Source of the DNA: a virus
Virus record (IMG/VR): IMGVR_UViG_3300027976_000246
Location: 1-21,987 of that record
DNA length: 21,987 bases
Direction: 5' to 3' (one strand)
The translations under genes were made by a program, and so were the position numbers. Positions 347 to 18,146 of this stretch are shown piece after piece (position 1 is the stretch's first letter; each line of letters starts with the position of its first letter). The notes beneath the pieces were generated by a model. The model searched no databases and was not told the origin of the DNA. It saw nothing but the letters and a program-made list of their open reading frames with translations.

Positions 347-2362
347 TTATTCCGCGGTCTTGGTGTCAGACTCAGCAGCCGGGGGTCGGACTGCGAGGAC
401 CGCGGCTCTCCGGCCCAGCTCGATCGCGTCGAATGTCTCGGCGTCGACCTTGCTGCCATCGAGGAAGTGAGCGATGCGGCGGCCTTCCATGGGCACGCGG
501 ACGATGCCTAGTCGGAACAGGATGTCGTCGATCGTGGACTGGCCGGCTTTGTCGACGGCCGACCTGATGACCGACCTGATCTCGCGGGTGCCGAGGCCGC
601 CGGGGTGTTCGAGCAGGGCCACGGCGACGCTGGCGCACTTTTTTGCCAGCTCGGCGGACTTCTTGAAGGACACAGTCTCACCTTCTTTCGAGGACCCATC
701 GGCGGGGGCATCGACTTCGGTCATACCCTGGCCGGCTTTGTCGAGGCGCAGGTAGATCCCTTCGGTGCGCGGGTTGGAGTGCTGGAAGCCGACCTTGTTC
801 TTGGAGATGTAGAGCTTGATGACGTTCTCGTCGTCGGTGCCGCGGACCGAGATGACGACCTTCCCCTGGTACTCGATCGAGCCAGACTCCTTCCCTAACG
901 CCAGGTCTGCAACATTGTTACCGCGCTCGTCGTATCCGGAGCGCACGATCTCGCCGGTGAAGATGACCATCTGGCCGAGCTGCATTGCCGCGGCCTTGCC
1001 AGCCAGCATCCTGGCCGTGACCTGCTCGCGGGGGGACCGCATGTCGGCCTCGAGTTCACAACGGCAGGTTTGAAGTGAGTCGATCACCAGGACTCCTTTG
1101 GTGCCGTTGCGCCTGCAGTCCTCCGCGAGGTCGATCGCGACCCGGTCTATGGTCCAGGAGTCGTTGTAGATCGACAGCCGCTCGCTCACCTCGGTGAGCC
1201 CGAGGGCCATCTTGCGCAAATCGTCGGGCTCACGCTCCTCCGCCTGTTCCCGAGTCCACCCGCGGCGCTGCACGAGCCTGGTTGTGATGCCGTCGTCATT
1301 CTCGTCTACACCGAGCATCCCGATCGTGATGCCACCCTCAGCTAGACGGTCGGATAGGACCGTCACAAGCATGGTCTTGCTCGCGTTCGGGGCGCCGTTG
1401 AAGACCGTCACCGTGCCGAATGGCAAGCCGCCGCGCAGCATCCGGTCCAGGGTCGGGAAACCCGTCGCCATCCGCTGGATCTTGCCTTCGTACCCCCACC
1501 TTTTGACTACCTCGATCGGCTTGATCTTCGTCTTCAGCGGTGGAGGCACCACTTTCTCCACCTTTGCGATGTCTGACCAAAGAGCGCCCGAAGCCCGCCA
1601 CGCCCGAGCGTCCTTGATGTCGGGCGGCGGGAAGACCACGGACACCGAGGACGCCGACCCCAGGATCGCCTTCACCACCGCGTCCACGCTGCGCTTGCCG
1701 GCGCCTTCGTCGTTGTCGCCGATCACCGTCACCGCGCGACCGCGCACGTAGGGGATCAGCGAGTCGACGGCCGCACCGGCGCTTGGCAACCCGAGCACGT
1801 CCACTTCGCCGTAGGACAGGATGGCCGCCGTGTCGCTCGCCCCTTCCACGATCGCGACCGGGCCGTCGTCCGGCGCGCCGACCCGCCGATACAGCCCGAC
1901 GGAACTGCCGCCGTAGTGTTGTTTCTTGCCGTCACGCTGCCGCCATGTGATGCCGCACACCGAACCATCGGCCGCGTGCATCGGGAAGGTCCAAGCCGAT
2001 CGGTCCTCGTCCCACCCGAGACCGATCTCCTGCAGCGCCAACGCCTCGACACCGAGGATGCCGGCAAGCTCCTCACCGAGTTCCTCCGTCACGCTCGAGC
2101 GGTAGGCGGCCTGGCGGGAAGCCCAGTCGACGCTGTTCTTCTTGGGCTCTTGCGCGCGCTCCTGGCGCTCCCGGTTCTCGCCGTCGAGGATGTGGATCCA
2201 TGCCGGGCCGTTCTTCGTGTCCCGCTCGTTCGTGCTCGGGATCTTCGTACACATTGCGGCCGAGTTGTCGGGCGCCATCGTGCAGAAGTGGTCCCGGTCG
2301 CAGACTGGGCAGTGGTGGGTCTTCGTGGCGCGAAGCCACGTCTCCGTCTCGTAGGTGGCCAT
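347..2362 (-). CDS. Phage DNA primase-helicase (zinc finger, Toprim, RecA-like)
   Basis: This 671-residue protein would prime and unwind DNA at the phage fork, like T7 gp4. The N-terminus has a CHC2-like zinc motif (Cys18, Cys21, Cys27, Cys38). A Toprim domain follows at about 168-235, with the VEG glutamate at 173 and the acidic GDNDEG motif at 215-220. A RecA/DnaB-type ATPase spans roughly 300-550, with P-loop GAPNASKT (323-330) and Walker B VLVIDS (D428). A winged-helix-like tail covers about 565-640. The P-loop has Ser where Gly normally precedes Lys. I chose the ATG at 2362 because GGTGA lies 5 nt upstream and the zinc motif needs it; the frame stays open further upstream but reads as Arg-rich non-coding sequence. 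It is downstream of the small zinc-ribbon gene on the same strand. No DNA polymerase is seen in the window. Confidence 0.85.
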   Translation of the reverse strand: MATYETETWLRATKTHHCPVCDRDHFCTMAPDNSAAMCTKIPSTNERDTKNGPAWIHILDGENRERQERAQEPKKNSVDWASRQAAYRSSVTEELGEELAGILGVEALALQEIGLGWDEDRSAWTFPMHAADGSVCGITWRQRDGKKQHYGGSSVGLYRRVGAPDDGPVAIVEGASDTAAILSYGEVDVLGLPSAGAAVDSLIPYVRGRAVTVIGDNDEGAGKRSVDAVVKAILGSASSVSVVFPPPDIKDARAWRASGALWSDIAKVEKVVPPPLKTKIKPIEVVKRWGYEGKIQRMATGFPTLDRMLRGGLPFGTVTVFNGAPNASKTMLVTVLSDRLAEGGITIGMLGVDENDDGITTRLVQRRGWTREQAEEREPDDLRKMALGLTEVSERLSIYNDSWTIDRVAIDLAEDCRRNGTKGVLVIDSLQTCRCELEADMRSPREQVTARMLAGKAAAMQLGQMVIFTGEIVRSGYDERGNNVADLALGKESGSIEYQGKVVISVRGTDDENVIKLYISKNKVGFQHSNPRTEGIYLRLDKAGQGMTEVDAPADGSSKEGETVSFKKSAELAKKCASVAVALLEHPGGLGTREIRSVIRSAVDKAGQSTIDDILFRLGIVRVPMEGRRIAHFLDGSKVDAETFDAIELGRRAAVLAVRPPAAESDTKTAE

Positions 2363-2447
2363 TGAGATCACCCGCCCTGCTCGTCGTTCGGGATGACCAC
2401 GTTCGATCGGCTGTTCCGCTTGCCGCCGCGCTGGGAAGGCGCCACGG

Positions 2448-2654
2448 TCACGCCTCACCGTTGTCGAGCGCCGCCTCCAGCAGTTCTTTGATCTCCCGGT
2501 GGAGCCGCTTGGAGTCGCCCTGTGAGCACGCCACGCACGCACCTGTTCGGGTGTAGCGCAGCCTGCCGTCGCACCGCCTGCATGACGATGTCGACAGGTA
2601 CTTCAGGCGACCGGACTCCGCGGCCTCGCGGCGGGTTTCGAGCTTTGGCTTCAT
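2448..2654 (-). CDS. Small zinc-ribbon protein, 68 aa
   Basis: The protein has a Cys-x2-Cys (25, 28) and a Cys-x2-Cys (40, 43) separated by RLRYTRTGAC, then a basic, helical C-terminus. A Tyr/Arg-Gly-Ala-Cys pattern of this kind recurs in small phage proteins and near phage endonuclease VII-type nucleases, where it binds zinc. No nuclease catalytic segment is visible here because the protein ends soon after the ribbon. The frame stays open upstream to 2819, but the ATG at 2654 removes a low-complexity Gly/Ala stretch and leaves the opposite-strand 2722 ORF free. It precedes the primase-helicase by 85 nt and is probably cotranscribed. Its exact role is unknown. Confidence 0.6.
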   Translation of the reverse strand: MKPKLETRREAAESGRLKYLSTSSCRRCDGRLRYTRTGACVACSQGDSKRLHREIKELLEAALDNGEA

Positions 2655-2721: not shown

Positions 2722-2856
2722 ATGACGACACCAGAAGCCCCAAAGCCAGCGGCTCCCGCCCCCAAGCCAGAATATGTGACCGACACCATGGGCATCGAAC
2801 GCGATCCAGACGCCTTCAAGCGGTCCGACTCCTCCTATGATCGAGGTCTATCGTGA
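2722..2856 (+). CDS. Small Pro/Ala-rich hypothetical protein, 44 aa
   Basis: I do not recognise this protein. It starts at ATG 2722 with a Pro/Ala/Lys-rich N-terminus, followed by an acidic and polar C-terminal half. Its stop TGA (2854-2856) is nested in the GTG start of the helicase (GTGA overlap), a typical coupling arrangement that supports real translation. No strong ribosome binding site precedes the ATG. It could be a true small protein or a leader that delivers ribosomes to the helicase start. The divergent promoter region for both directions would be 2655-2721. Confidence 0.4.
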   Translation: MTTPEAPKPAAPAPKPEYVTDTMGIERDPDAFKRSDSSYDRGLS

Positions 2857-4505
2857 CAATCACCCTACGCCCCTACCAACAGGCCGCCGTCACCGCCCTC
2901 GAGCAGTGGGACTATGCCGCCGACGGCAACCCGCTTCTCGTGGTGCCAACAGGCGGTGGCAAGTCTCTGATCCAAGCCGCTTACATCGCCGCCAACCCCG
3001 AGGCGCGCGTGTTGTGTGTGACCCACGTCAAGGAACTCGTGGCGCAGAACCACGGCGCCTACCTGCAGATCTGTCCTGATCAGTCGCATGACAAGTCGGT
3101 CGGCATCTACTCAGCCGGCCTGCGCCGCCGCGACACCGACTCGCACGTGCTGTTCGCCGGACTGCAGTCGGTCCACAGGCACCCTGAGAAGTTCGGCTGG
3201 TTCGACATCGTCATCGTCGATGAGGTCCACAGGGTGCCAAAGAAGGGCGCTGGCATGTACCTGTCGTTGTTCGAGGCCCTGCGTAAGACCAACCCCGAGC
3301 TACGCATCGTCGGCATGACCGCGACGCCGTTCCGCACCGACAGCGGTTCGCTCACCGTCGGCGAAGATCGCATGTTCCACGGCACCGCCTACGAGTGCGA
3401 CATGACGTCGTTGATCGAGCAGGGCTACCTCAGCGACGTGCACTGTCGCGGCACCGCTTCGGCGATCGACACCAAGGGCGTTCACGTCCGTGCGCGTGAG
3501 TTCGTTGCCGAGGAACTCGAGCGGCGCGCCATGGTAGACGGACTGGTCGAGAAGTCCTGTGTCGAACTCGTGAAGCGCGCCGAGGACCGCAGGTCGTGGC
3601 TGTTGTTCTGCACCGGGATCTCGCATGCAGGATCTGTCGCCAAGGAGTTGCGTGAGGTCCATGGTATCACATGCGGCGAGGTCTACGGTCATACACCTAT
3701 TGACGAGCGTGATGAGGTCATCCGTGCTTACAAGGCAGGTGAGATCCGTGCGTTGGTGAATTGTTCTGTGTTGACAACCGGCTTCGACGCACCGCAAACC
3801 GATGTGATAGCATTGCTGCGCCCAACGATGTCGCCAGTGCTCTACTGTCAAATGGTTGGCCGTGGACTACGACTGGCGCCAGGGAAGACCGACGCGCTCG
3901 TTTTAGACTTCGGCGGCAACGTCATGCGTCACGGCCCTATCAACGACGTGCGGTTGTCGCAGGACGCACGCGAGCAAGCCGCAACCAAATCAGCGCCGGT
4001 GAAGGAGTGCCCGGAGTGCCACAGCTTCATGCCGAGCGCGGTGATGATGTGCACGGCGTGCGGTCACAAGTGGCCGCTGAAGATGCCGAGTCACGACGAG
4101 ATGCCAGCCGACGGCGTGCTCGTGATTCGCAACAAGTGCGGCGACGCGACCGGCGTCGAGCGGTGGCTCGTGAACAGCGTGCACTACAGCTACCACGCCG
4201 CCAGGAAGCTCGGCAACCGACCGACCCTGCGCGTGAGCTACCTGTGCGCCGCGGGCCGTCGCGCGAACCAGTTCATCTGCTTCGAGCACCCGAAGGGCAC
4301 CTACCCCCGGCTGAAGGCCGAGCACTGGTGGGGCTCGGCCGTCGGTGACGATGTCGCGGTGCCGTGGAGCGTCGGCGAGGCGGCGCGACTGCTGACCGGC
4401 GACATCGCGGTGAAGACCGCTGCCGAGATCACCGTCGACACCCGTGGGCCGTGGCCGGACGTGAAGCGTGTGACGATGCGGAGCCTAGAGGCGGCGACGC
4501 CGTGA
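2853..4505 (+). CDS. DEAD/DEAH-type superfamily 2 DNA helicase
   Basis: This 550-residue helicase belongs to the SSL2/UvsW-like SF2 group, which phages use in replication, recombination or repair. The N-terminal Q-like motif RPYQ (6-9) precedes Walker A PTGGGKS (32-38). DEVH (123-126) is Walker B, and TAT (156-158) is motif III. The second RecA lobe contains TTGFDAP (308-314) and QMVGRGLR (333-340), the arginine-finger motif VI. After the helicase core comes a four-Cys zinc ribbon (Cys386, 389, 400, 403), then a roughly 120-residue C-terminal domain rich in Trp and His that is typical of phage members. The GTG start at 2853 has GAGGT 5 nt upstream and overlaps the stop of the 44-aa ORF. It ends 2 nt before a convergent leftward gene, so the two transcripts meet tail to tail. 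Confidence 0.9.
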   Translation: MTITLRPYQQAAVTALEQWDYAADGNPLLVVPTGGGKSLIQAAYIAANPEARVLCVTHVKELVAQNHGAYLQICPDQSHDKSVGIYSAGLRRRDTDSHVLFAGLQSVHRHPEKFGWFDIVIVDEVHRVPKKGAGMYLSLFEALRKTNPELRIVGMTATPFRTDSGSLTVGEDRMFHGTAYECDMTSLIEQGYLSDVHCRGTASAIDTKGVHVRAREFVAEELERRAMVDGLVEKSCVELVKRAEDRRSWLLFCTGISHAGSVAKELREVHGITCGEVYGHTPIDERDEVIRAYKAGEIRALVNCSVLTTGFDAPQTDVIALLRPTMSPVLYCQMVGRGLRLAPGKTDALVLDFGGNVMRHGPINDVRLSQDAREQAATKSAPVKECPECHSFMPSAVMMCTACGHKWPLKMPSHDEMPADGVLVIRNKCGDATGVERWLVNSVHYSYHAARKLGNRPTLRVSYLCAAGRRANQFICFEHPKGTYPRLKAEHWWGSAVGDDVAVPWSVGEAARLLTGDIAVKTAAEITVDTRGPWPDVKRVTMRSLEAATP

Positions 4506-7074: not shown

Positions 7075-8786
7075 CTGTTGAAGTTGTCCCGAGCGACCCG
7101 GCGGCGTTCAAGAAACGCTGCTTGGCGGACACCGGGTTCCTGGCGCGGAACCTGCTCGGGTTCAACTACGACGAGGCCGAGGGTGGCAGGAAGACCAACA
7201 TCGGCACCGGCGGCATCGTCAACTACGGCAAGCACCTCGAGATCTGCGAGCTGCTCGACGACCGCGACATCAAGTGCAAGCTCGTCATCGCGCCGCGCGA
7301 GTCGCGCAAGTCGACGCTCCTGCAGGCCTTCATCGTCCGGCAGATCCTGCTGAACCCCGACATCCGCGTCTTCTACGTCGCCCGCACCGACGCGATGGCG
7401 CGCGACAAGGCGCTCGCGATCCGCCGCCAACTCGAGAACCCGAACCTGGTGCGGCTGTTCGGCGAGCAGGCTGGCAAACCGTGGGAGGAGACCCGCTTCA
7501 CGATCCGAGGGCGTCGCAACACCGCGCTGATGAACGCGACGGTGCAAGGGTTCTCGATGGACTCGCTGCCGGTCGGCGGGCGCTGCAACCTGCTCGCGGT
7601 CGACGACTTCATCGACGACACCAACGTCACCAATGCGACCCAGAACAAGAAGAGCAAGGCGAAGTACGCGCACCTCCAGCCGTTCGTTGCCAAGGGCGGC
7701 ATCCTGGTGGTTGTTGGGACGATCTGGGACGACGACGACCTCTACGCCGACCTGCAGGCATCATCCGTGTTCGCCCCGCCATCTGGTGGCCAGGTCGTGT
7801 GCGGCGTCGGTGTGGACGTCTTCTACGGCAAGAACGGCAAGATGGACCTGATGGAGGATGAGACCGGGATCACCTTCCCGCACCTCACCGTCGACTACCT
7901 GCGCGGCAAGCTGCAGGGCATGCTGCTAGAGGGCAAGTCGGACCTCTTCGTCAAGCAGTACCTCAACATCGCCTCGACCGAGGGCGGCAACCACTTCGAG
8001 CGGCGCTTCTTCCAGCCCGTCAAGTGGGGTGACGACATGCGCCAGTTGTCGGGCTTCATCGTCACCGACACGGCGATCAGTCAGGAGGACTCGGGTTGCT
8101 ACTCGGTGGTGGCCTACGTCGCGCTCGACGCCAGCGACAACATCTACCTGCTAGACCTACGGTTAGGTCACTGGACCATGACCGAGTTCGTGGACGAGTT
8201 CTTCACGATGCTCGAGCACTGGCAGGCCATGGTGAACCACATCGGGGAGTGCTGGGAGGAGGCCCACCTGTCGACTGCCTTCCGCGAGGCGATCGAGTAC
8301 GACAAGCGGGCCAGGAAGGTGCGGCTGCGCACGATCGAGATGCCACGCACATCGAAGAACAAGAAGACGGCGCGCATCAACCGGCTGCAGCACCCCATGG
8401 CCAACCGGCGCTTCTGGGTCTGCAACACCGTGCCGGCGACCTTCATGGACGTCGATGGCGAGAAGGAGCTGTGGAACCCGACGGGCCACTACGACGCCCG
8501 CACCAAGGCGTTGTCGCCGTCCGGTGAGCTGGTCGACGAGTTCGTGCGGTCCTCGTCCAAGAAGGACATCCCCGACGCCTTGGCCATGATCCTGGAGTAC
8601 GAGAAGACCCGCCGTGGGGTGAGGCGGAAGTGCACCTTCAAGCCCTGGACCCCCCCGCCCTTGCGCCGATCCTTGACGGCGGAGCGCAATGAGGCATACC
8701 ATGTCGCCCAGTACTCCCCGAACGTCACGAGCGGTGACTGGTGGGACAACTTGCTCCATGACCCACGATTCGACCACCCTACGTAG
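7071..8786 (+). CDS. terL: Terminase large subunit (ATPase and nuclease)
   Basis: This 571-residue motor packages DNA into the prohead. Walker A is APRESRKST (74-82), with Arg where Gly normally stands before Lys80. Walker B is LLAVDD (174-179), and the coupling motif is VVGTIWDDDD (214-223). The RNase H-like nuclease follows, with D333 in FIVTDTA, and D499/D502 in KDIPDALA as candidate metal ligands. The layout is that of podovirus-type large terminases. The GTG start at 7071 overlaps the previous stop, with GAAG 7 nt upstream; the frame is open further upstream but there it overlaps the other gene and reads Arg-rich. The short C-terminal tail past 510 is variable in the family. Confidence 0.9.
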   Translation: MTVEVVPSDPAAFKKRCLADTGFLARNLLGFNYDEAEGGRKTNIGTGGIVNYGKHLEICELLDDRDIKCKLVIAPRESRKSTLLQAFIVRQILLNPDIRVFYVARTDAMARDKALAIRRQLENPNLVRLFGEQAGKPWEETRFTIRGRRNTALMNATVQGFSMDSLPVGGRCNLLAVDDFIDDTNVTNATQNKKSKAKYAHLQPFVAKGGILVVVGTIWDDDDLYADLQASSVFAPPSGGQVVCGVGVDVFYGKNGKMDLMEDETGITFPHLTVDYLRGKLQGMLLEGKSDLFVKQYLNIASTEGGNHFERRFFQPVKWGDDMRQLSGFIVTDTAISQEDSGCYSVVAYVALDASDNIYLLDLRLGHWTMTEFVDEFFTMLEHWQAMVNHIGECWEEAHLSTAFREAIEYDKRARKVRLRTIEMPRTSKNKKTARINRLQHPMANRRFWVCNTVPATFMDVDGEKELWNPTGHYDARTKALSPSGELVDEFVRSSSKKDIPDALAMILEYEKTRRGVRRKCTFKPWTPPPLRRSLTAERNEAYHVAQYSPNVTSGDWWDNLLHDPRFDHPT

Positions 8787-8997
8787 CGCCGAGCTGACCT
8801 CGGACCCGCTGACCCAGGACTCGAAGGTGCAGATCCGGTTGTCGGAACTGCAGAGCATCCGCGATCGGCTGCGCAAGTTGTGCCCCGGCAACAACTTGAT
8901 CGCGAGGCTCTGGGAGCAGGTGGCAGATCTCTATGTGCGCCTCGAAAAAGAGGCCAAGCTGGCGAAGAGCCAAACGGAAGAGGCCGACACACGATGA
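8758..8997 (+). CDS. Small helical protein, 79 aa, between terminase and structural gene
   Basis: I do not recognise this protein. A polar N-terminus (about 1-22) is followed by heptad-like helix from about 25 to 75 (IRLSELQSIRDRLRKL, then LWEQVADLYVRLEKEAKLAK), suggesting a coiled coil. ATG 8758 overlaps the terminase end by 29 nt; a later start such as GTG 8827 is possible. Its stop overlaps the next start as ATGA (8994-8997). In phages, small coiled-coil ORFs near terminase and portal are often head-assembly or spanin-like accessory proteins; there is no signal or membrane segment here. Confidence 0.55.
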   Translation: MTHDSTTLRSAELTSDPLTQDSKVQIRLSELQSIRDRLRKLCPGNNLIARLWEQVADLYVRLEKEAKLAKSQTEEADTR

Positions 8998-11024
8998 CGA
9001 CGTTGCAAACCCCGACCCCGGTGCGGAAGACCTACGACGCCTATGACCAGCGGGTGATGCGCTACGCGCGGGCGGCGACCGGAGGTCTGACGACGGCCTT
9101 CTCCGCGACGACGAACGTCTCCTGCGGCGCCAACGAGATCGCCTTCATCGACGAACTGACCTTGCGGTCCGCGACGCTCGACAACCAGTTCGCCAACAAC
9201 GCAACTCTGAGCGGCGCCGCGGTGACTGCAATTGTCGTTGCCAGTAACATCCCGTCCTGGGTGCCGCAGACCGGGATACTGACGATCCTGCGCGACAGCG
9301 GCATCTTCTCCGAGATCGCCTACACGTCCTGGGCCACGGCGACCTTCCAGATCGGCGCCACCGCATTCAACGCTACCGGAGCGACCTCTCCGGCTCAAGC
9401 CGCCACCCCGGTATTCGTCAGCTCAGGCAACGTCACCGTCACCGCCGAGATCAACGGCGTCGAGTGCCCGATCCACTTCGAGGCCGAGCCCAACGCCGCC
9501 CACACCGAAGTCGTTCGACTGCGCCCCAAGGGCAACCTCGTGCTGCAGCCGTCGCAGACCATCAAGTTCAAGACCAGCAGCGCCGGCGTCGGCAGCACCG
9601 TGGCGTTCACATACCGCAAGTACACGCTCGCGACGGCGCGGGAGCAGGGCTTGCTCGGCCCGACCATGGCCGCTGTCGCCTCATCCCGGCGGAAGACCAT
9701 GGCGCTCGGCACGACGCTGACCAGCGTGACGGCGACATCTGTCGTGGTCTCAGCGGCGATCCCGTCCTGGGTGCCACAGACCGGAAGCATCGCGGTCACC
9801 CGCAACTCGGGCGCCGTCTCGACGATCACCTACTCGGCGTGGACCGGCTCGACCTTCACGATCACACTGACCGATTTCAGCGGCGACAACGCCACCGCGG
9901 CCAACGTCGTCTTCGCACCGGTCACCGTCGCAGGCACCCCGAAGCAGATCGTGGCAGCCATCGCCGGCTTCCGCATCCAAGTGCTCGGCTACTACGTCTC
10001 CGGTCACAACTACGTCGCCGCCGATGACTACCTGTCGCTCGGCTTCTGGGAAGGCACCGGCACGTTCTTCAACGGCGTCGCCACCAAGGCAGCGACCGCC
10101 CACCTGGTGACGGTGGCGCACATGCACGGCCACCACGGTCGCCTCGCCCCGCGCATCCGCGTCGACAACACCGACGGCTGCGTCGAGGGTCCCACCGGCT
10201 ACGGGCTCTACGTCCGGGCATCCACGAATGTCGCAGGCTACGCCTCCAATGCCGACGTCTTCGTGATGTATCGCTACGTCAAGACGGACGTCAGACTTCA
10301 CGCCTACAGCCTCGCGACTGCGCTCTCCAGCGGCGGCGAAACCGCTGTCGTTGCGGGGCATGCAATCCTGCCCGACACCCCGCAGACCGGCACGGTCAAC
10401 ATCACTCTGACGGACGGCACCATCCTGTCGGTCCCCTATACGTCCTGGGCCACGACGACCTTCGCGATCGGTAGCACGGCGTTCAACGTCACCGGCGCGG
10501 CTGTCGGCGCGCTGATCACCGCCAACCGCGAACACGGCATCGTCAACGACTTCCGCGGCAGCGTGACGCAACCGATCGCGCGTCCCGGCAAGTTCTGGGT
10601 GAGCACGATCGCGGCCCCGGCACTCTTCGGATTCGGCAACACCACCGAGGTCCTGTTCACGCAGGCAGCGGCTGCCGGCGACAAGGTCGTCAAGATCAAA
10701 GGCTACGTCGCCAGCGCGATCGGCCGCGACGCCGCATCGACGGCCCCGATCGCAGGTATCTCGATAGGAGCCACCGTGTTCGCGCCGAACGAAGTCGGCA
10801 TCGGTGGGTCTGCGCTGTGGCCAGGTCACGGCGGCGGCGCCACGGCATTCGCCAGCAACTCCATCGTCGAAACTGAGATCCTGATCCCGACGCAGGTCAA
10901 TCTCATCCCCTCGATGATGGCCTTTCAGGCGAACTCGGGCGACATGCCGGTTCGCTTCCAGTCCGTCTGGGGCGAGTTCGAGTCGGCCCACGACACCACC
11001 GGCATGCTGACGCTCATCGCGTAA
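8994..11024 (+). CDS. Virion structural protein with three inserted beta modules
   Basis: The 676-residue protein is rich in Thr, Ala, Val and Gly, as expected for beta-rich virion proteins. The scaffold sequence is interrupted three times by a similar module of about 65 residues (about 77-142, 245-310 and 449-511). Each module has a PQTG turn (IPSWVPQTG at 86-94 and 256-264, ILPDTPQTG at 458-466), a Y-S/T-x-W segment and then TFxI. Modules of this type recur in phage virion proteins as exchangeable surface domains. The parts outside them (143-244, 311-448, 512-676) carry no motif I recognise; a role as a head decoration or fiber-like protein is inference. It lies between terminase and portal, an unusual place for such a protein. 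ATG 8994 overlaps the previous stop. Confidence 0.6.
   Translation: MTTLQTPTPVRKTYDAYDQRVMRYARAATGGLTTAFSATTNVSCGANEIAFIDELTLRSATLDNQFANNATLSGAAVTAIVVASNIPSWVPQTGILTILRDSGIFSEIAYTSWATATFQIGATAFNATGATSPAQAATPVFVSSGNVTVTAEINGVECPIHFEAEPNAAHTEVVRLRPKGNLVLQPSQTIKFKTSSAGVGSTVAFTYRKYTLATAREQGLLGPTMAAVASSRRKTMALGTTLTSVTATSVVVSAAIPSWVPQTGSIAVTRNSGAVSTITYSAWTGSTFTITLTDFSGDNATAANVVFAPVTVAGTPKQIVAAIAGFRIQVLGYYVSGHNYVAADDYLSLGFWEGTGTFFNGVATKAATAHLVTVAHMHGHHGRLAPRIRVDNTDGCVEGPTGYGLYVRASTNVAGYASNADVFVMYRYVKTDVRLHAYSLATALSSGGETAVVAGHAILPDTPQTGTVNITLTDGTILSVPYTSWATTTFAIGSTAFNVTGAAVGALITANREHGIVNDFRGSVTQPIARPGKFWVSTIAAPALFGFGNTTEVLFTQAAAAGDKVVKIKGYVASAIGRDAASTAPIAGISIGATVFAPNEVGIGGSALWPGHGGGATAFASNSIVETEILIPTQVNLIPSMMAFQANSGDMPVRFQSVWGEFESAHDTTGMLTLIA
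9249..10511 (+). repeat. Intragenic module repeats at DNA level
   Basis: The segments coding for IPSWVPQTG in modules 1 and 2 (9249-9275 and 9759-9785) match at 25 of 27 bases. The segment coding for YTSWATATF onward in module 1 (9321-9380) matches module 3 (10437-10496) at about 48 of 60 bases. Module 1 therefore resembles module 2 in its first half and module 3 in its second half. Conservation of third positions suggests recent duplication or recombination rather than only protein-level selection. Confidence 0.7.
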
Positions 11025-11028
11025 CGCC

Positions 11029-13290
11029 GTGTCCTCGACGACGACGATCCCGCAGGACGAGGGGGAGTTCACTCCGCGCGAGGCGGAAGCCCTCTACGAC
11101 GCCAGCATCGACACCGAGAACCAGGCGCTCGATCCCGAGAAGGCGAAGAACGCGCTGCGACTCGTGACCGGGATCGTCGCCGAGCACAGCGAGTTGATGA
11201 CGTCGCTGCATCGGCGGTGGCGCGCGATCGACTACATGCTGCAGGGCAACACCCTGGAGAAGGGTGGCCCCGAGGACGTTCACGTCCCCGAGATCTACAA
11301 GGCGATGGAGACCATGATCCCCCGCATCGAGGAGATCATCCTCGAGAAGGATCCGTGGTTCCGCATCGTCCCGCGCCGCTACACCAACCGCGCCGAGGCC
11401 GACGCCAATTCCGCCTACCTCGATTGGGAGTTCGACCAGGCCAAGATCCGCGACCTGATCCAGCCGTCCCTGCGCGACATGCTCGTGTCCCAGGCGTCGG
11501 CTTGGTACATCTGGTGGGAGACCAAGACCTCGATGCGTCAGGCGCGCGAGATCACGACGGTCTACGACGATAGCGGCAAGCCCTCGCGCAAGCTGAAGCG
11601 CGGCAAGCGCAAGGAGTTCGTCGACTACAACGGCCCCAAGGCCAAGCTCGTCGACCCGTTCGATCTCATGATCGACCCGAAGTCCACCAACCCGCAGGAC
11701 GCGCTATACTGCGGTCACCGGGTGTGGCTCACGATCGACGAGATCCGCCGCCTCGGGAAGAAGCGCGGCTGGGCCAACCTCGACGAGTTGGATGCCGGCA
11801 AGGCGACCACGCTCGGCAACGAGCAGGATCAGTATTCCTGGACGCGCGACCCGACCACCCGCTTCTCCGGCAACCGCGACCGCACGCCGAAGAACGACGG
11901 CCGACCGGATCCGATCGAGGTCGTCTTCCTGAACTGCCTCTACAGCATCAACGACGACGACACCTACGAGGACGTCTGCTTCGTGGTGGCTGGCGGCAAG
12001 ACCGTGCTCGACCTGCGCCCGAACCCGCTCGACGGGCAGTATCGCCCTTACGCGACGATGCGGGTCGCCAAGACCGGCCACAACTTCTACAGCACCGGCG
12101 TGTTCGACAACGCGGTGCGGCTCAACCAGCACATCGACCGGCTGCACCAGATCTTCCTGCGCGGCGCCGCGATCGCCGGCTGCCCGATCGGCTTCGCGGA
12201 CGGTGAGGGCGAGCTGCCGGACAACCTCTACCGCGTCACGCCCGGCAAGATCTACCCCGGCGTCGCGAACATCCGCTTCACCTCGATCCCCGACGGCTTC
12301 CTGCGCTCGCTGCCGCTGGCGATCTCGATGCTGACCAGGAACCTCGAGGAGGTCGTCGGCGCCTTCCGCATCCAGATGGGCCAGCAGGACGGCGGCACCG
12401 CCACCGAGGCCACCCTGTCGCTCCAGGAAGGCAACCGTCGCACGCGCGGCATCATCCGCTCAGTTGGCGATGGCCTGGAGCAGATCCTGACGATCTTCCA
12501 GAAGCTCAACCTGCAGTTCAGCCCGAGTGACGTCGAGTTCCCCGTGCTCGGCAAGCGCGCGCTGGACATGCGCAAGACCCACCTCGTGATGTCGCCGGCC
12601 GACCTGCTCGACGACGTCAAGTTCGAGTTGGTCGGCCTCGCCTCGCTCCGCACCTACGGTATGAAGGCGACCGGGCTGCAGGCCGTGATGAACAGCGGCA
12701 TGCCGCTCATCGCCGGCAACCCTGGCGCGATCGACCAGGTCGGCATCCTCTACGAGCTGTTTCGCGAGTTCGTGGGCGTCCAGGAGGCCGACCGCCTCGT
12801 CAAGATGCCGACGCCGCCAGATCGGCTGCGGTCCCAGGAGGAGGAGAACGAGGGTCTCATCGCAGGCGAGGAGATCGAGGTCGACGAGGACGATGATCAC
12901 AAGGACCACCGCAAGAAGATGCGGTTCCTGGTCGAACGCGCGCTCGATCCCGACGACTTGATGCCGCCTCATGTTCGCGGTGTGGTCCTGGCGCACGATC
13001 AGACCCACGAGCGCATGAAGCAGCACCAGGAGGCCAAGGAGCGCGCCGAGCAGCGCAGGAAGCCCCAGGGCCCGTCCATGGCGCCTCCAGAGGCCGGTGG
13101 CCAGTCAGCCGAGTCAGGGCGCTCGAGCCCACCCCCTGGTGGCATGAGCAACGCCCTGCAGGACCTCGCCGACGGTGGTGGTCCTGGCGGGCAGACGGCT
13201 GGTGAGAATCCGGGGCCGAGCGATTCCCGCAAGTACGGGCGCAGCGGGCGCGCGGGCCGCACCACCAACCAGAGCGACAACGAGCTATGA
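11029..13290 (+). CDS. Portal protein, P22-like large type
   Basis: The 753-residue product would form the dodecameric ring through which DNA enters and leaves the head. Its size fits the large portals of P22-type and related podoviruses. The N-terminal half has the helical wing (HRRWRAIDYMLQGN, 65-78; EIYKAMETMIPRIEEIILEK, 89-108), followed by DPWFRIVPRR (109-118), the membrane-like beginning of the clip and wing fold. Mid-protein NFYSTGVFD and a Gln-rich ATEATLSLQEGNRR region match the stem region of portals. The last 130 residues are charged and then Gly/Pro/Ser-rich and look disordered. The GTG start at 11029 is 4 nt after the previous stop. It is followed immediately by a small coupled gene. 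Confidence 0.85.
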   Translation: MSSTTTIPQDEGEFTPREAEALYDASIDTENQALDPEKAKNALRLVTGIVAEHSELMTSLHRRWRAIDYMLQGNTLEKGGPEDVHVPEIYKAMETMIPRIEEIILEKDPWFRIVPRRYTNRAEADANSAYLDWEFDQAKIRDLIQPSLRDMLVSQASAWYIWWETKTSMRQAREITTVYDDSGKPSRKLKRGKRKEFVDYNGPKAKLVDPFDLMIDPKSTNPQDALYCGHRVWLTIDEIRRLGKKRGWANLDELDAGKATTLGNEQDQYSWTRDPTTRFSGNRDRTPKNDGRPDPIEVVFLNCLYSINDDDTYEDVCFVVAGGKTVLDLRPNPLDGQYRPYATMRVAKTGHNFYSTGVFDNAVRLNQHIDRLHQIFLRGAAIAGCPIGFADGEGELPDNLYRVTPGKIYPGVANIRFTSIPDGFLRSLPLAISMLTRNLEEVVGAFRIQMGQQDGGTATEATLSLQEGNRRTRGIIRSVGDGLEQILTIFQKLNLQFSPSDVEFPVLGKRALDMRKTHLVMSPADLLDDVKFELVGLASLRTYGMKATGLQAVMNSGMPLIAGNPGAIDQVGILYELFREFVGVQEADRLVKMPTPPDRLRSQEEENEGLIAGEEIEVDEDDDHKDHRKKMRFLVERALDPDDLMPPHVRGVVLAHDQTHERMKQHQEAKERAEQRRKPQGPSMAPPEAGGQSAESGRSSPPPGGMSNALQDLADGGGPGGQTAGENPGPSDSRKYGRSGRAGRTTNQSDNEL

Positions 13291-13649
13291 ACCCAACTGA
13301 ACCCGAGCCGATCCTCCACGACTACGCTCGCCAAGCGGCGGAAGTCGAGCGCGAGATCGCAGCGGCGACGTCGGATCTCATCCTGAGCGAGGCGGTTGCG
13401 GTGATTCGCGAGCATCCCGAGTGGGACAAGTTCACCGCTCGACTTGGCGAGATCTACGACGGCTTGGCTCGTTCGCTCGTGCGCAAGCGCCTGGACAGCT
13501 ACGACCTCGGCTTCCACCAGGGCTATGCGCGAGCGCTCAGTGCCATGCTGTCACAAAAGCCTCTATCGCAGCAGGAGGTTGACCAGATCCGCACGGACAT
13601 TAGCATCCAGGCCGAGCGACTTGCGGACCTCCGTAAGATACTCGCATGA
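13287..13649 (+). CDS. Small helical protein, 120 aa, after portal
   Basis: I do not recognise this protein. It is entirely charged and helical, with possible coiled-coil stretches (AAEVEREIAAATSDLILSEA, and QQEVDQIRTDISIQAERLAD near the end). ATG 13287 overlaps the portal stop as ATGA, so translation is coupled. Its place between portal and scaffold suggests a head-assembly helper. A 93-nt gap follows with weak inverted repeats and a 12-codon ATG-started mini-ORF (13646-13684), neither of which I would call a gene. Confidence 0.65.
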   Translation: MNPTEPEPILHDYARQAAEVEREIAAATSDLILSEAVAVIREHPEWDKFTARLGEIYDGLARSLVRKRLDSYDLGFHQGYARALSAMLSQKPLSQQEVDQIRTDISIQAERLADLRKILA

Positions 13650-13742
13650 ATCTGACCCTTCGTCGTGTGGCTGGACGAGGGTGAGTAGTTCCCAGGCCAA
13701 TCCCGCGAGCCGGGTGTCACGGGCTCACCAGGACCGAAACGT

Positions 13743-14366
13743 ATGTCGGAATCGTCCCCCGAGGAACCGGAAGTCGATGCAGTCGATGAGATCGTAGAAG
13801 ACAAGCCGGAGAAGTTGGTTCCCGCCAAAGCAGTAGCCAAAGAGCGCAGCGAAAAGAGGGCCGCACGCGAAGAGGTGAACAAGCTACGGGGGGAACTTGC
13901 CGAGAAGTCGAAGCAGTTCCTGAGTGCTGAGGACCTGTCGTCCCTGATGGATGAGATGGCCGAAGTCGCGAAGACCGCGGCCGAGGAGTGTCTCAAGCCC
14001 ATCGAGGCCGAACGCGATCAGTACCGCATGGCTGCGGAGATGGGTCTGAACCCAGGGCAGGCTGCAAAGGTCATGAACATCAAAGCGAGCAACCCGAACT
14101 TGACGAGCCAACAGGCTCTCTTGCTCGCTCGCAGCGAAGATTCGGACGACCTGTTCCCCTCTCAGCGCAACCAAGTCAATCGAGCCGCGATTGGTGGTTT
14201 GCCGGTTGGCGGCCTTTCGCCAGCTCGCAGCGCCGCCCCCGCCCAGGACTTCGTCAAAAAGATGAACGAGGCCAGGGACAAGGGCGACGTCAACGCCACC
14301 AAGAAGTTCGCCAAAGACGAACTGTTCGCGCGCGTGCATCGGTTGTTCGGAACAAGCCCTCGGTAA
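13743..14366 (+). CDS. Capsid scaffolding protein
   Basis: This 207-residue product has the usual profile of a phage scaffold. The N-terminus is very acidic (about 1-25). A coiled-coil core rich in Glu, Lys and Ala follows (about 30-100, KERSEKRAAREEVNKLRGEL), then a Pro/Gln-containing flexible section. A basic, helical C-terminus ends it (FVKKMNEARDKGD, and KKFAKDELFARVHRLF), which in scaffolds contacts the capsid protein. AGGA lies 9 nt upstream of ATG 13743. It sits 12 nt before the major capsid gene, the standard arrangement. No protease motif is visible. Confidence 0.75.
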   Translation: MSESSPEEPEVDAVDEIVEDKPEKLVPAKAVAKERSEKRAAREEVNKLRGELAEKSKQFLSAEDLSSLMDEMAEVAKTAAEECLKPIEAERDQYRMAAEMGLNPGQAAKVMNIKASNPNLTSQQALLLARSEDSDDLFPSQRNQVNRAAIGGLPVGGLSPARSAAPAQDFVKKMNEARDKGDVNATKKFAKDELFARVHRLFGTSPR

Positions 14367-14378
14367 CAAGAGCACGAA

Positions 14379-15560
14379 ATGGCGACTCCCTACATGGTAT
14401 GGCCGACTGCCACCGTCGGCCCGGTGAATGAGACGCTCCTGAAGGAGTCGGTCTCGGACATCATGTCCAACCTCTTTCCCCTCGACACGACCCTGCACCA
14501 ACTGCTGGGCCGCGAAGGGATGGACCAGCCCGAGAAGACCTTCCCTCTCGACTACTTCTCGACGGCGCTGATCAACCGGGCCAGCTCGGTCTTCAATGCC
14601 AGCGCTGCCGGCGCGAGCACCTTCGCGAAGCCCGAAGGCCACACCTACACGGACCGGACTCCCGAGTTCCAGGACAAGATCAAGTCGGTCGTCCAGATCT
14701 ACGGTGACCAGTTCTCCGTGTCAGGCACCGAGCAGGTCGTCTCGACCTACGCCATCGCCGATCGCTTCGCGCACGAGCTGATGAAGACGATGAAGGGGCT
14801 GTTGAACATGCAGGAGTTCAGCTTCTGGTGGAGCCCCGGCACGAAAACGTCGGGCGCCGACATGGACTCAACCAACGGCACCGGCGCACCGTACCTGGCG
14901 ATCCGGCAGACCCAGGGCCTGATGCATTGGATCTTGAAGTCCGGCCTGTCGCGCGCCAAGCTCGGCGTCCGCACCGGCACGCTCGTGGACGGCCACGACA
15001 ACAACTTCGGCTCGACCTCCTCGGTCCCGCTCGGCAACTCGGCCTCCTGGGCCTACGACGCTGGCGGCCTCGCCATGGATCAGGCGATGTTCAAGGACAG
15101 CCTGATGGCGCCGTGGTATCGCAACACGGGCGAGCAGGCGGGTGCGGTGGGCTTCGCCAGCGCGCGCATGAAGAACCTGGTGTCGACCTTCGCGCACACC
15201 GCGGTTGGCGCGATCAACGAGCGCACGATCGGCGCCGAGCAGCGCGCCCTGATCGACACCATCGACGTCTACGAGACCGACTTCGGAGCCGTCAAGATCT
15301 CGCTGTGCCGCCAACTCGAACTGCCCGGCCAGTCGGTGTCGATCTCGCAGTCGGACGCATCGTCCACGACCGTGCTCTACGACGAGGTGCTCGCGCTGAT
15401 CAAGCCCGAGTACTACAGCATCGGCGAACTGCGCCCGATGACCTTCTCGCGCCTCGGCAAGACGGGCGACTTCGAGCAGGGCCTCTGCGTTGGCGAGTCC
15501 GGGCTGATCTGCCGCAACCCGAGCGCGGGCGCTGCGATCGTCAACGCAGTCGCGATCTAG
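14379..15560 (+). CDS. Major capsid protein, SU10/DUF5309-like
   Basis: The 393-residue protein builds the capsid shell and has the HK97 fold by family. Signs include a short N-arm, an early GREGMDQPEKTFPLDYF segment, and the R-T-P-E-F...KSVVQIYGDQFSVSGTEQ stretch (about 88-117) that is characteristic of this capsid family. Also seen are a long helix containing FAHELMKTMKGLLNMQEFSF (130-149) and a C-terminal domain with LPGQSVSISQSDASS and DFEQGLCVGESG. GAG lies about 8 nt before the ATG. It follows the scaffold gene by 12 nt. No separate decoration gene is clear nearby. Confidence 0.85.
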   Translation: MATPYMVWPTATVGPVNETLLKESVSDIMSNLFPLDTTLHQLLGREGMDQPEKTFPLDYFSTALINRASSVFNASAAGASTFAKPEGHTYTDRTPEFQDKIKSVVQIYGDQFSVSGTEQVVSTYAIADRFAHELMKTMKGLLNMQEFSFWWSPGTKTSGADMDSTNGTGAPYLAIRQTQGLMHWILKSGLSRAKLGVRTGTLVDGHDNNFGSTSSVPLGNSASWAYDAGGLAMDQAMFKDSLMAPWYRNTGEQAGAVGFASARMKNLVSTFAHTAVGAINERTIGAEQRALIDTIDVYETDFGAVKISLCRQLELPGQSVSISQSDASSTTVLYDEVLALIKPEYYSIGELRPMTFSRLGKTGDFEQGLCVGESGLICRNPSAGAAIVNAVAI

Positions 15561-15596: not shown

Positions 15597-16046
15597 GTGC
15601 CGACTTACACCTATGAGTGCCCCTCCTGCGAGGGGCGTCAGGAACACTGGCTAGGCATCGCGTCCCACCCGGATGCGATGCCGTGCAAGTGCGGTGGCAC
15701 AGCGGAACAGGTCATGAATTGGGATGGCGGCACGATCGTTCGGGGCCGCACCCGTGACTTCAAGCTCGACGCCATGAGCGTCCCGGTGAATTGGGAATAC
15801 GGCAACACCGACGTTGCCGCCCAGCACCGTCGCTACGAGAAGCACATCGGCGAGAAGAGGAAGCTCGCGATCCAAAACGAAAAGGCTGCGATCAAAGGCG
15901 GCTTCCGTCAGATCGCCTGCATCCCGCGTGAGCTGGATCGCATGCGCTCCAATCAGTTCGGCAAGGACCACTTCTCCACCACGACACAGTCGATCGGCAA
16001 GTTGAAGGAGAAGCTCAAGGCCGACGACCTCCTCTTCAAGGACTGA
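15597..16046 (+). CDS. FmdB-like zinc-ribbon protein, 149 aa
   Basis: The first 40 residues follow the FmdB-type zinc ribbon pattern: MPTYTYECPSC with Cys8 and Cys11, then PCKCGG with Cys30 and Cys32, then AEQVM. The second pair is Cys-x-Cys instead of the usual Cys-x2-Cys. The match of the first residues to the family fixes the GTG start at 15597. The remaining 110 residues are basic and helical with no recognised domain. Phages often encode such proteins between capsid and tail genes; their role is unclear, perhaps in head completion or as a small binding protein. It lies 4 nt before the next gene. Confidence 0.65.
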   Translation: MPTYTYECPSCEGRQEHWLGIASHPDAMPCKCGGTAEQVMNWDGGTIVRGRTRDFKLDAMSVPVNWEYGNTDVAAQHRRYEKHIGEKRKLAIQNEKAAIKGGFRQIACIPRELDRMRSNQFGKDHFSTTTQSIGKLKEKLKADDLLFKD

Positions 16047-16049
16047 CCC

Positions 16050-18146
16050 GTGGTAGCCAAGGTCTTCATCTTCGCTGGCGACTCGATCGAGTACGGCTCT
16101 GGCAACCTGAGCCTTGTGACGGCAGAGGACTTCACGCGCTGGACCGGCACCGCGTGGCCAGGCACAGCGCCGAAGGACGTCTCGATCCCCGACGTCTACA
16201 TGCTGTCGCCGAAGATGCCGTATGGCGTGACGACGACGTCGAGGGTGGCATCGGCAACTCCGACGACGGTGGTGACGGCTGTTGCGATCTTCACCGGCAC
16301 GGTGACCGATGTCGACCGATGGGTCTACGTCCTCTCTGGCACCGGCCAGGGGCAACGCCGCAGGATCACCCTCCAGGTGTCAACCACCGCAGTCACCGTG
16401 GGCACATGGACGGTCACGCCAGATACGACGAGCGTTCTCGAGTTCTGGACCGACAGCCACAGCTTCGCCTCGCTCGTGACCGATGCGGTTGCGAACACGA
16501 CCGTGATCACGAAGAACGCGAGTTCCCCGGACTGGGCCGGACTGACCAACACCTGGGTGCAGGTCACCGACGGGACTGGCAAAGGGCAAGTTCGGCGGAT
16601 CGTCTCCAAGGCCAGCGGTGACATCATCGTCGTGGCACCGGCGCTTGCGACCACGCCAGACGTCAACGGCGGCCTGCGTGAAATGACCGGCGCGAACACG
16701 GTCAACACGATCGCCGACATCACGGCAGCGAAGTTCGCTGTCAGGAACCTCCGCTTCTACCAGGACGCCTCGGCGACGAGCTACAGCGACCCCTACCACT
16801 ACCCGAACTACCTGGGTGGCCCGCTCGTCGCGGGTGCGCACCCGGTCGTTGACGCGATCAACGCGATCCCCGAAACGATGTGGCGCCTGCGATCGGACCA
16901 CGAGGGCGCGATCTACGGCATCAACGTCTCGGCCGGCGGCGCAACGCTGGCGTCGTTCAACCTCAGCAACCTCCTGCCGTTGTTCCCCCTTGGCCTGTTC
17001 TCCGGTGGCGCGTTCTCATGGACCGTGGACGTCGAGCACCTCGACTTCCGACCGGGTGCGACCAACGGCCTCTACGGCGTCCTGCAAGGCTACGTCACAG
17101 CGCTTGCCGGCATCCTCGGCGCGATCGACGTGCAGGGGGTGTTCTGGTGCCTGGGGACGAACGACTCGATCAATGCGGAGAAGGCGGCGCAGTTCCACGT
17201 CAACATGGACACGCTGCGGGCCAAGTTCCGATCCTGGTTGGTCGCGAATAGCCACACCACCCTGAAGGCGTCGTCGGTGCCGTGGATCATGGACCGCGTC
17301 GGACCGTCTGTGACCCGCACCTACTCCTCGACGGTGAACACGGCGATCGACCAACTCGCGGCGGACGACATCACGTCCGAGGCGGTGGACGTCTCCGACA
17401 TCGCCTACTCCGCCGACACAGTTCACCCGAACCAGGAAGGCTACATCACGAAGGGCGAGCGGCGCTACGTCGCGTGGAAGGCGGCCCGGTCGGCGATCGC
17501 GGATGCGACAACGCCGTCGGCCAGCCGAGACACCCTGGCGACGATCCGCACGCGCGTGCGCCGCCGCTACGAGCGCATCACGGCATCGACCGACACGCTT
17601 TCCGACTCCGTCGATTACTACATCAACGAGAGCCTGCGCGAGATCTACAACCGCCTCGGCGACAACGCCTGGTTCCTGCGCATCCGCGACACCATCACGC
17701 TGTCGGCGAACTACCCGAAGTCGGCCGAACTGCCGCTGACGATGTCGAGGCCGATCCGCTTCGAGGACTCGCGCTACCCTGGCCGCCGGGTGAAGTGGCG
17801 CGCGGTAGGGCGCGGCAACGAGGGCCGCTTCATCGTCTCGTTCGACCAGACGATGCAATCGCCGATGGTGGTGTTCTACCGCATCGCGCCTGACGACATG
17901 ACCGAGGACGACGACGTGTGCCTTGTGCCGCACGAGCACATCGAACTGGTGACGGTGCTGACCTGCCGAGGACTGGCCGAGTCGTCCGGCAACGCCACCG
18001 CGATCGCGCTCTACGGTGCCAAGGCGCAGGAACTCTGGCAGCTCATGCTGCGCGATGCGGCGCGGTTTCAGCAGCAGTTTGACCAGTCGATGGACGCCGA
18101 CGGCACGGACGGTGACTGGCCGCTGCCTTCGTCCTGGAGCCTCTGA
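16050..18146 (+). CDS. SGNH-hydrolase and head-tail adaptor-like fusion protein
   Basis: This 698-residue product joins two functions. The front is an SGNH/GDSL-type esterase: FAGDSIEYG (9-17) carries the nucleophile Ser12, CLGTNDS (367-373) carries block III Asn371, and DTVHPNQ (456-462) carries catalytic Asp456 and His459. Between blocks I and III lie two similar structural modules (about 62-133 and 142-212), each with a GTGxGQxRRI turn. From about 494 to 698 the sequence resembles podovirus head-tail adaptor proteins, with TIRTRVRRRYERI, YYINESLREIYNRL, and a final helix rich in Gln and Phe. The frame is continuous, with no stop or shift. GTG 16050 starts 4 nt after the previous gene, and its stop overlaps the next gene as TGATG. 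The esterase could act on host-surface polysaccharide; this is inference. Confidence 0.65.
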   Translation: MVAKVFIFAGDSIEYGSGNLSLVTAEDFTRWTGTAWPGTAPKDVSIPDVYMLSPKMPYGVTTTSRVASATPTTVVTAVAIFTGTVTDVDRWVYVLSGTGQGQRRRITLQVSTTAVTVGTWTVTPDTTSVLEFWTDSHSFASLVTDAVANTTVITKNASSPDWAGLTNTWVQVTDGTGKGQVRRIVSKASGDIIVVAPALATTPDVNGGLREMTGANTVNTIADITAAKFAVRNLRFYQDASATSYSDPYHYPNYLGGPLVAGAHPVVDAINAIPETMWRLRSDHEGAIYGINVSAGGATLASFNLSNLLPLFPLGLFSGGAFSWTVDVEHLDFRPGATNGLYGVLQGYVTALAGILGAIDVQGVFWCLGTNDSINAEKAAQFHVNMDTLRAKFRSWLVANSHTTLKASSVPWIMDRVGPSVTRTYSSTVNTAIDQLAADDITSEAVDVSDIAYSADTVHPNQEGYITKGERRYVAWKAARSAIADATTPSASRDTLATIRTRVRRRYERITASTDTLSDSVDYYINESLREIYNRLGDNAWFLRIRDTITLSANYPKSAELPLTMSRPIRFEDSRYPGRRVKWRAVGRGNEGRFIVSFDQTMQSPMVVFYRIAPDDMTEDDDVCLVPHEHIELVTVLTCRGLAESSGNATAIALYGAKAQELWQLMLRDAARFQQQFDQSMDADGTDGDWPLPSSWSL
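16233..16686 (+). repeat. Two tandem GTGxGQ structural modules inside the SGNH domain
   Basis: Residues about 62-133 and 142-212 of the fusion protein share the same order: a V/T-rich strand, W-V-x-V, a GTG-x-GQ-x-R-R-I turn (98-106 and 175-184 region), a V/I strand, and an ending with TTPD or TPDTTS. Modules with this GTGxGQ-R-I pattern recur in phage tail and fiber proteins as spacer or binding units. Here they sit between esterase blocks I and III, so they would protrude from the catalytic domain. Confidence 0.5.

Follow-up and report, generated by a model that had tools for sequence, protein, structure and literature searches.

A predicted SGNH esterase fused to a predicted head-tail adaptor in uncultivated podoviruses

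What would a carbohydrate esterase be doing in the same polypeptide as the head-tail adaptor of a podovirus? The question is raised by one gene in the window, by which we mean the whole stretch of 21,987 nucleotides analysed here (IMG/VR record IMGVR_UViG_3300027976_000246; the record itself is complete at 21,987 bases and the virus is fragmentary). A sequence-only reading of this DNA had proposed that a single open frame carries the signature blocks of an SGNH esterase followed by an adaptor domain. The translated frame is indeed uninterrupted, without an internal stop, and the residues named in that reading (S12, N371, D456 and H459) are all present. The features of the locus are collected in Table 1.

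Table 1. Features of the esterase-adaptor gene and its neighbours (window positions).
Feature	Position	Strand	Basis or remark
SGNH esterase - head-tail adaptor fusion gene	16050..18146	+	698 aa; GTG start; TGA overlaps next ATG
SGNH/SASA carbohydrate-esterase domain (predicted), residues 1-484	16050..17501	+	Pfam SASA 3.3e-7; predicted fold, model 1-486
Ser12, predicted nucleophile, block I (G10-D-S12; FAGDSIEYG)	16083..16085	+	kept in 7/7 fusions
Inserted beta-rich module 1 (SGTGQGQRRRIT), residues about 72-138	16263..16463	+	self-alignment; strands in model
Inserted beta-rich module 2 (DGTGKGQVRRIV), residues about 150-217	16497..16700	+	self-alignment; strands in model
Asn371, predicted oxyanion-hole Asn, block III (G369-T-N371-D; LGTNDS)	17160..17162	+	kept in 5/7 fusions
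Asp456-x-x-His459 (DTVH), block V, predicted remainder of catalytic triad	17415..17426	+	His in 7/7, Asp in 6/7
SU10/T7-type head-tail adaptor domain (predicted), residues 491-698, including low-confidence C-terminal tail (about 680-698)	17520..18143	+	fold match; orthologous regions match PF24175
Portal protein	11029..13290	+	Pfam SU10_portal 1.8e-28
Major capsid protein	14379..15560	+	Pfam SU10_MCP 4.6e-39
FmdB-type zinc-ribbon protein between capsid and fusion	15597..16046	+	TIGR02605 2.4e-8; found in most relatives by tblastn
Putative nozzle (tail tubular B-like) protein, 1164 aa	18146..21640	+	weak PHROG matches to internal virion / virion structural proteins; syntenic with A-4L ORF31L

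From 6.5 kb onward the genes run in the order terminase, repeat-rich protein, portal, scaffold-like protein, capsid, FmdB-type zinc ribbon, fusion and putative nozzle. The repeat-rich protein (674 aa, 9000-11024) lies between terminase and portal, contains several repeats of the type PSWVPQTG...YTSWATxTF and has no clear family; homologous pieces are found at the equivalent place in relatives. The zinc-ribbon gene is in close relatives always between capsid and adaptor gene, an odd spot for a regulator-like protein, and its product is perhaps a virion part. At the other end of the window, a primase-helicase-like replication gene (347-2542, minus strand) and a DEAD-type helicase gene (2853-4505, plus strand) face each other; both are recognised by eye only.

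We consider the N-terminal domain first. The window protein scores 30.6 bits against Pfam SASA (PF03629; gathering score 24.8), and two GDSL models fall just under their own gathering scores. When a profile of the seven proteins is searched against solved structures, its matches include 1zmb, which is acetylxylan-esterase-like (6e-5), and 2apj, an esterase from Arabidopsis (7e-5). For a structural model, AlphaFold2 was run on a 7-row alignment (a single-sequence model gave pLDDT 34). The result has a moderate mean pLDDT of 64, with most of the adaptor at 75-92, most of the esterase core at 70-85 and the inserts and some loops lower; its pTM of 0.43 makes the relative orientation of the two domains unreliable. 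In the comparison by VIA-align, residues 1-486 of the model have the SGNH (flavodoxin-like) fold, with 1zmb at Z 18.2 (199 residues aligned, rmsd 2.9), 2apj at 18.2, NanS at 16.7, the cyanophage Pan3 tailspike at 16.6 and SIAE at 14.5, and with XAC1771 also among the top carbohydrate esterases. The window domain thus has the same predicted fold, the same Ser-(Asn)-Asp-His blocks and the same block order as the SASA/CE6-type SGNH esterases (1zmb, At4g34215 2apj, NanS, SIAE), from which it differs in having two beta modules between blocks I and II and in being fused to a virion neck protein.

The two modules align with each other at a local score of 80, where 1000 shuffles reach a maximum of 60, and we take them to be genuine tandem copies. 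The sequence-only reading had put these GTGxGQ modules between blocks I and III; their place can be narrowed to the loop between blocks I and II, past S12 and ahead of about residue 290. The exact motif is missing in some relatives and the region varies in length, with little of it in L018 and L019. The modules probably shape or lengthen the glycan-binding face.

The C-terminal domain requires a different route, as the window protein's own C-terminal region gives no direct match in Pfam, PF24175 (SU10_adaptor) included. The equivalent regions of its relatives do pass the gathering score of 27: L018 with 37.2 bits (5.5e-9), L015 with 33.5 (7.3e-8), L001 with 29.6 (1.1e-6) and L016 with 27.1 (7e-6). 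The window region is 37.5% identical to that of L001 (E 5e-46). The model of residues 491-684 has the adaptor fold, a helix bundle with a beta dock domain, and VIA-align places it closest to the A4 adaptor (9k09, Z 14.1), followed by Pa223 (13.1), GP4 (13.0), SU10 (7z47, 12.9) and KHP30 (12.7). In a Foldseek search the SU10 adaptor ranks first (7z4b, 1.5e-5) and 1zmb third, so that structure prediction and structural search recover both an SGNH and an adaptor fold, as the sequence-only reading had anticipated. In the low-confidence tail, residues 680-698, a W and an L are partly conserved.

The position of the gene points the same way. It adjoins the nozzle gene within an SU10-like portal-capsid module, and the putative nozzle gene lies directly 3' of the adaptor-slot gene in the window and all eight relatives described below (9/9 contigs); two scans of bacterial and archaeal genomes turned up no relative of this nozzle gene. 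In Anabaena phage A-4L, whose synteny agrees, the same slot between the capsid and the next tail gene is occupied by a stand-alone 217-aa SU10_adaptor protein (9e-10). When a nine-row adaptor profile is compared with 267 ORFs, this A-4L protein, ORF32L, comes top at E 0.01. The profile comparison with ORF32L alone is not significant, and the adaptor assignment therefore rests on the Pfam matches and the fold instead; against solved structures the nine-row profile gives nothing significant. The fusion is thus like SU10 gp11, T7 gp11 and the cyanophage A4 adaptor (PF24175) in the predicted fold of residues 491-684 and in its pre-nozzle gene position, and the window has its portal and capsid in common with SU10-like families. 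Compared with the stand-alone adaptors ORF32L and PACQ9_40 (208 aa), it adds about 490 N-terminal residues that are the predicted enzyme.

The next question is whether the fusion is real. Using the capsid, nozzle and adaptor alignments, we gathered eight further uncultivated-virus contigs. Six of them have an esterase-adaptor fusion in the same locus (L009/L014, 698 aa; L001, 720; L006, 772; L015, 844; L018, 602; L019, 630), at 25-33% identity to the window protein. In L015 one chain passes the cut-offs of both SASA (27.6 bits) and SU10_adaptor, which alone establishes the architecture. The sequence-only reading had allowed that the two parts might always be separate genes in relatives, or that an assembly chimera might lie around 17480-17540. 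Neither objection holds: an assembly artefact or an accidental loss of a stop codon is refuted by six fusions in contigs from other samples and by a GC content that is flat across 17480-17540. A tblastn search of 50,697 cultured-phage records found no match to the whole protein, to the modules or to the adaptor domains of L015 and L018. In a viral structure library the two strongest matches are UniProt A0A516LTA4 and A0A516LMG1, with more than 700 alignment columns; both are unnamed viral proteins, and similar fusions may therefore already sit unannotated in UniProt.

The other two contigs have a different protein in the adaptor slot. In L016 (458 aa; 7619-8995) and L017 (465 aa; 7593-8990) the adaptor is preceded by some 240 aa that form an unrelated, beta-rich domain with no SGNH signature; the two versions share 26% identity, and that the domain is "lectin-like" is only an impression. 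The N-terminal end of the adaptor therefore looks exchangeable. Trees of the nozzle and portal are compatible with a single change of the N-terminal domain, without settling its direction.

Is the esterase domain catalytically active? The four closest sequences (30-33% identity over the full length) all have S12, N371, D456 and H459, and from the conserved residues we infer that residues 1-484 would be. In L015 and L018, block III has the SASA-type GE[AS]E in place of the Asn form; the GE[AS]E form is usual among SASA enzymes. In L019 (fusion at 7118-9010) the Asp of block V is replaced (NASNH), and this protein is possibly a pseudo-enzyme or uses a Ser-His dyad. For block II, the window has GG at 294-295, a position that is not conserved across the family, where the alignment is weak. 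Since the block II Gly is unconserved, the Asn replaced in two proteins and the Asp in one, not every homologue need be active.

These variations bear on another explanation, in which the SGNH domain serves mainly to bind glycans and the collar at the neck to attach the virion, several members having weak hydrolysis or none. The non-SGNH domain of L016 and L017 would fit binding as the common need, and L015, L018 and L019 all depart from the standard residues of the triad or oxyanion hole. There is also a precedent in phage DEV, whose virions have no detected LPS hydrolase activity though their fibre has an esterase-like domain (PMC10925440), which makes a binding-only role the main rival, above all for homologues with altered triads. 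However, the window and L009 have the full canonical set, and Ser and His persist in every fusion despite identities of 25-33%, which pure binding would not need. We judge this explanation rather unlikely, at roughly one chance in five.

Taken together, the sequences and models establish both predicted domains, their order, the short linker, the conserved catalytic residues and the conserved locus. The function that we propose, and consider a fairly probable one on these grounds and by analogy, is a dodecameric neck ring that shows about 12 N-terminal SGNH (SASA/CE6-type) esterases and deacetylates host surface glycans during adsorption. An adaptor of the SU10/A-4L-like podovirus kind would carry the esterase on its N-terminus. 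In SU10 the adaptor forms a dodecamer and inserts a C-terminal loop into the portal (PMC9509320); by analogy, the C-terminal adaptor here would form the usual 12-mer between portal and nozzle, and its extreme C-terminus would grip the portal as in SU10. The C-terminus must stay free for this grip, which fits fusion at the N-terminus only. At about 54 kDa each, twelve such domains are too large for the DNA channel, so the esterases would sit outside as a collar with about 12 active sites. On contact they would strip host capsule, LPS or EPS of O-acetyl (or similar ester) groups, and the glycan, loosened or remodelled, would let the short tail reach the envelope. SGNH receptor-binding proteins of phages are known as active deacetylases, in G7C spikes and Klebsiella prophage tail fibres (PMC13123978).

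Alternatively, the enzyme could work in the manner of a virion-associated lysin at the neck while the genome enters the cell, with O-acetyl groups of peptidoglycan or some other ester of the envelope as its substrate. Phage P22 offers a precedent in its neck protein gp4, which has muramidase activity and was described as the only virion lysin located there (PMC5380687), and the fold matches include peptidoglycan O-acetylesterases (Ape1, PatB-like). The best sequence and structure matches, however, are sugar acetylesterases (1zmb, 2apj, NanS, SIAE) rather than Ape1-type enzymes, and the neck ring normally remains outside the envelope; we regard such a role as improbable. Still less probable, and to be given little weight, is that the polypeptide is processed, with cleavage at the junction separating the esterase from the adaptor, followed by its release or reattachment elsewhere. 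The junction, residues 484-490, is a low-confidence part of the model, as processing might suggest, but it is short and of near-constant length in 6/7 fusions, and inspection showed neither an extended linker nor a common cleavage motif.

How does the proposed enzyme collar compare with known systems? One parallel is in the N4-like phages (Schitoviridae), podophages in which G7C gp63.1, Moo19 gp82, B2 gp48/49 and DEV gp53 surround the neck with an esterase or esterase-like domain that binds O-antigen or acts on it. These spikes project from the collar (PMC10925440, PMC11654681) and deacetylate host glycan (PMC11654681). They are, however, separate trimeric fibres that dock on the tail or adaptor, whereas the window protein is a single polypeptide with its esterase domain covalent in the adaptor, in an expected 12 copies; the fusion may work like an N4-like collar spike without being one. 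As six distant relatives share the fusion, these viruses probably bear the enzyme collar at the neck, not on a separate fibre. In L006 the gene just after the nozzle gene (12625-13794) encodes a fibre whose N-terminus is of the Mtd_N (major tropism determinant) type, so that virus probably has a receptor-binding fibre of its own in addition to the neck esterase; L015 encodes, among its tail genes, a separate laminin-G/ConA-like lectin protein (16404-17147; PF13385 3.5e-10).

Enzymatic activity has been reported for adaptor or neck proteins themselves: P22 gp4 as a muramidase (PMC5380687), and KP32 TTPA (gp31), which is reported to hydrolyse polysaccharide and degrade capsule (PMC5440376). In both cases it is the small adaptor that is credited with the activity, rather than a fused enzyme domain of known fold. 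The neck passage structure proteins of Lactococcus phages likewise have exchangeable carbohydrate-directed domains at the neck (PMC10684548), but they decorate a siphophage neck and are not an adaptor ring. In the open-access literature we found no account of an esterase joined covalently to an adaptor. The sequence-only reading slightly overstated the oddity of the combination, given P22 gp4, KP32 TTPA and the N4-like collar spikes. The parts are known, as is the idea of neck-mounted enzymes, and what is new is a real, conserved covalent fusion with a likely function, as predicted from sequence and model.

A wider reading, which we offer tentatively and think somewhat doubtful, is that the adaptor ring is a modular display platform whose N-terminus bears interchangeable host-glycan domains (SGNH in seven viruses, beta-rich in two), the 12-fold collar replacing the work of docked tail spikes. 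Adaptors usually count as passive plumbing, and it is in fibres and spikes that annotation pipelines seek host-glycan enzymes. In our search of PHROGs, no family was found for the adaptor part and none covered the fusion protein, so that such genes go unnamed. The conserved fusion indicates that an essential ring can itself bear an enzyme, with a stoichiometry set by the ring, and it predicts the site of a glycan-modifying activity in a large group of uncultivated podoviruses.
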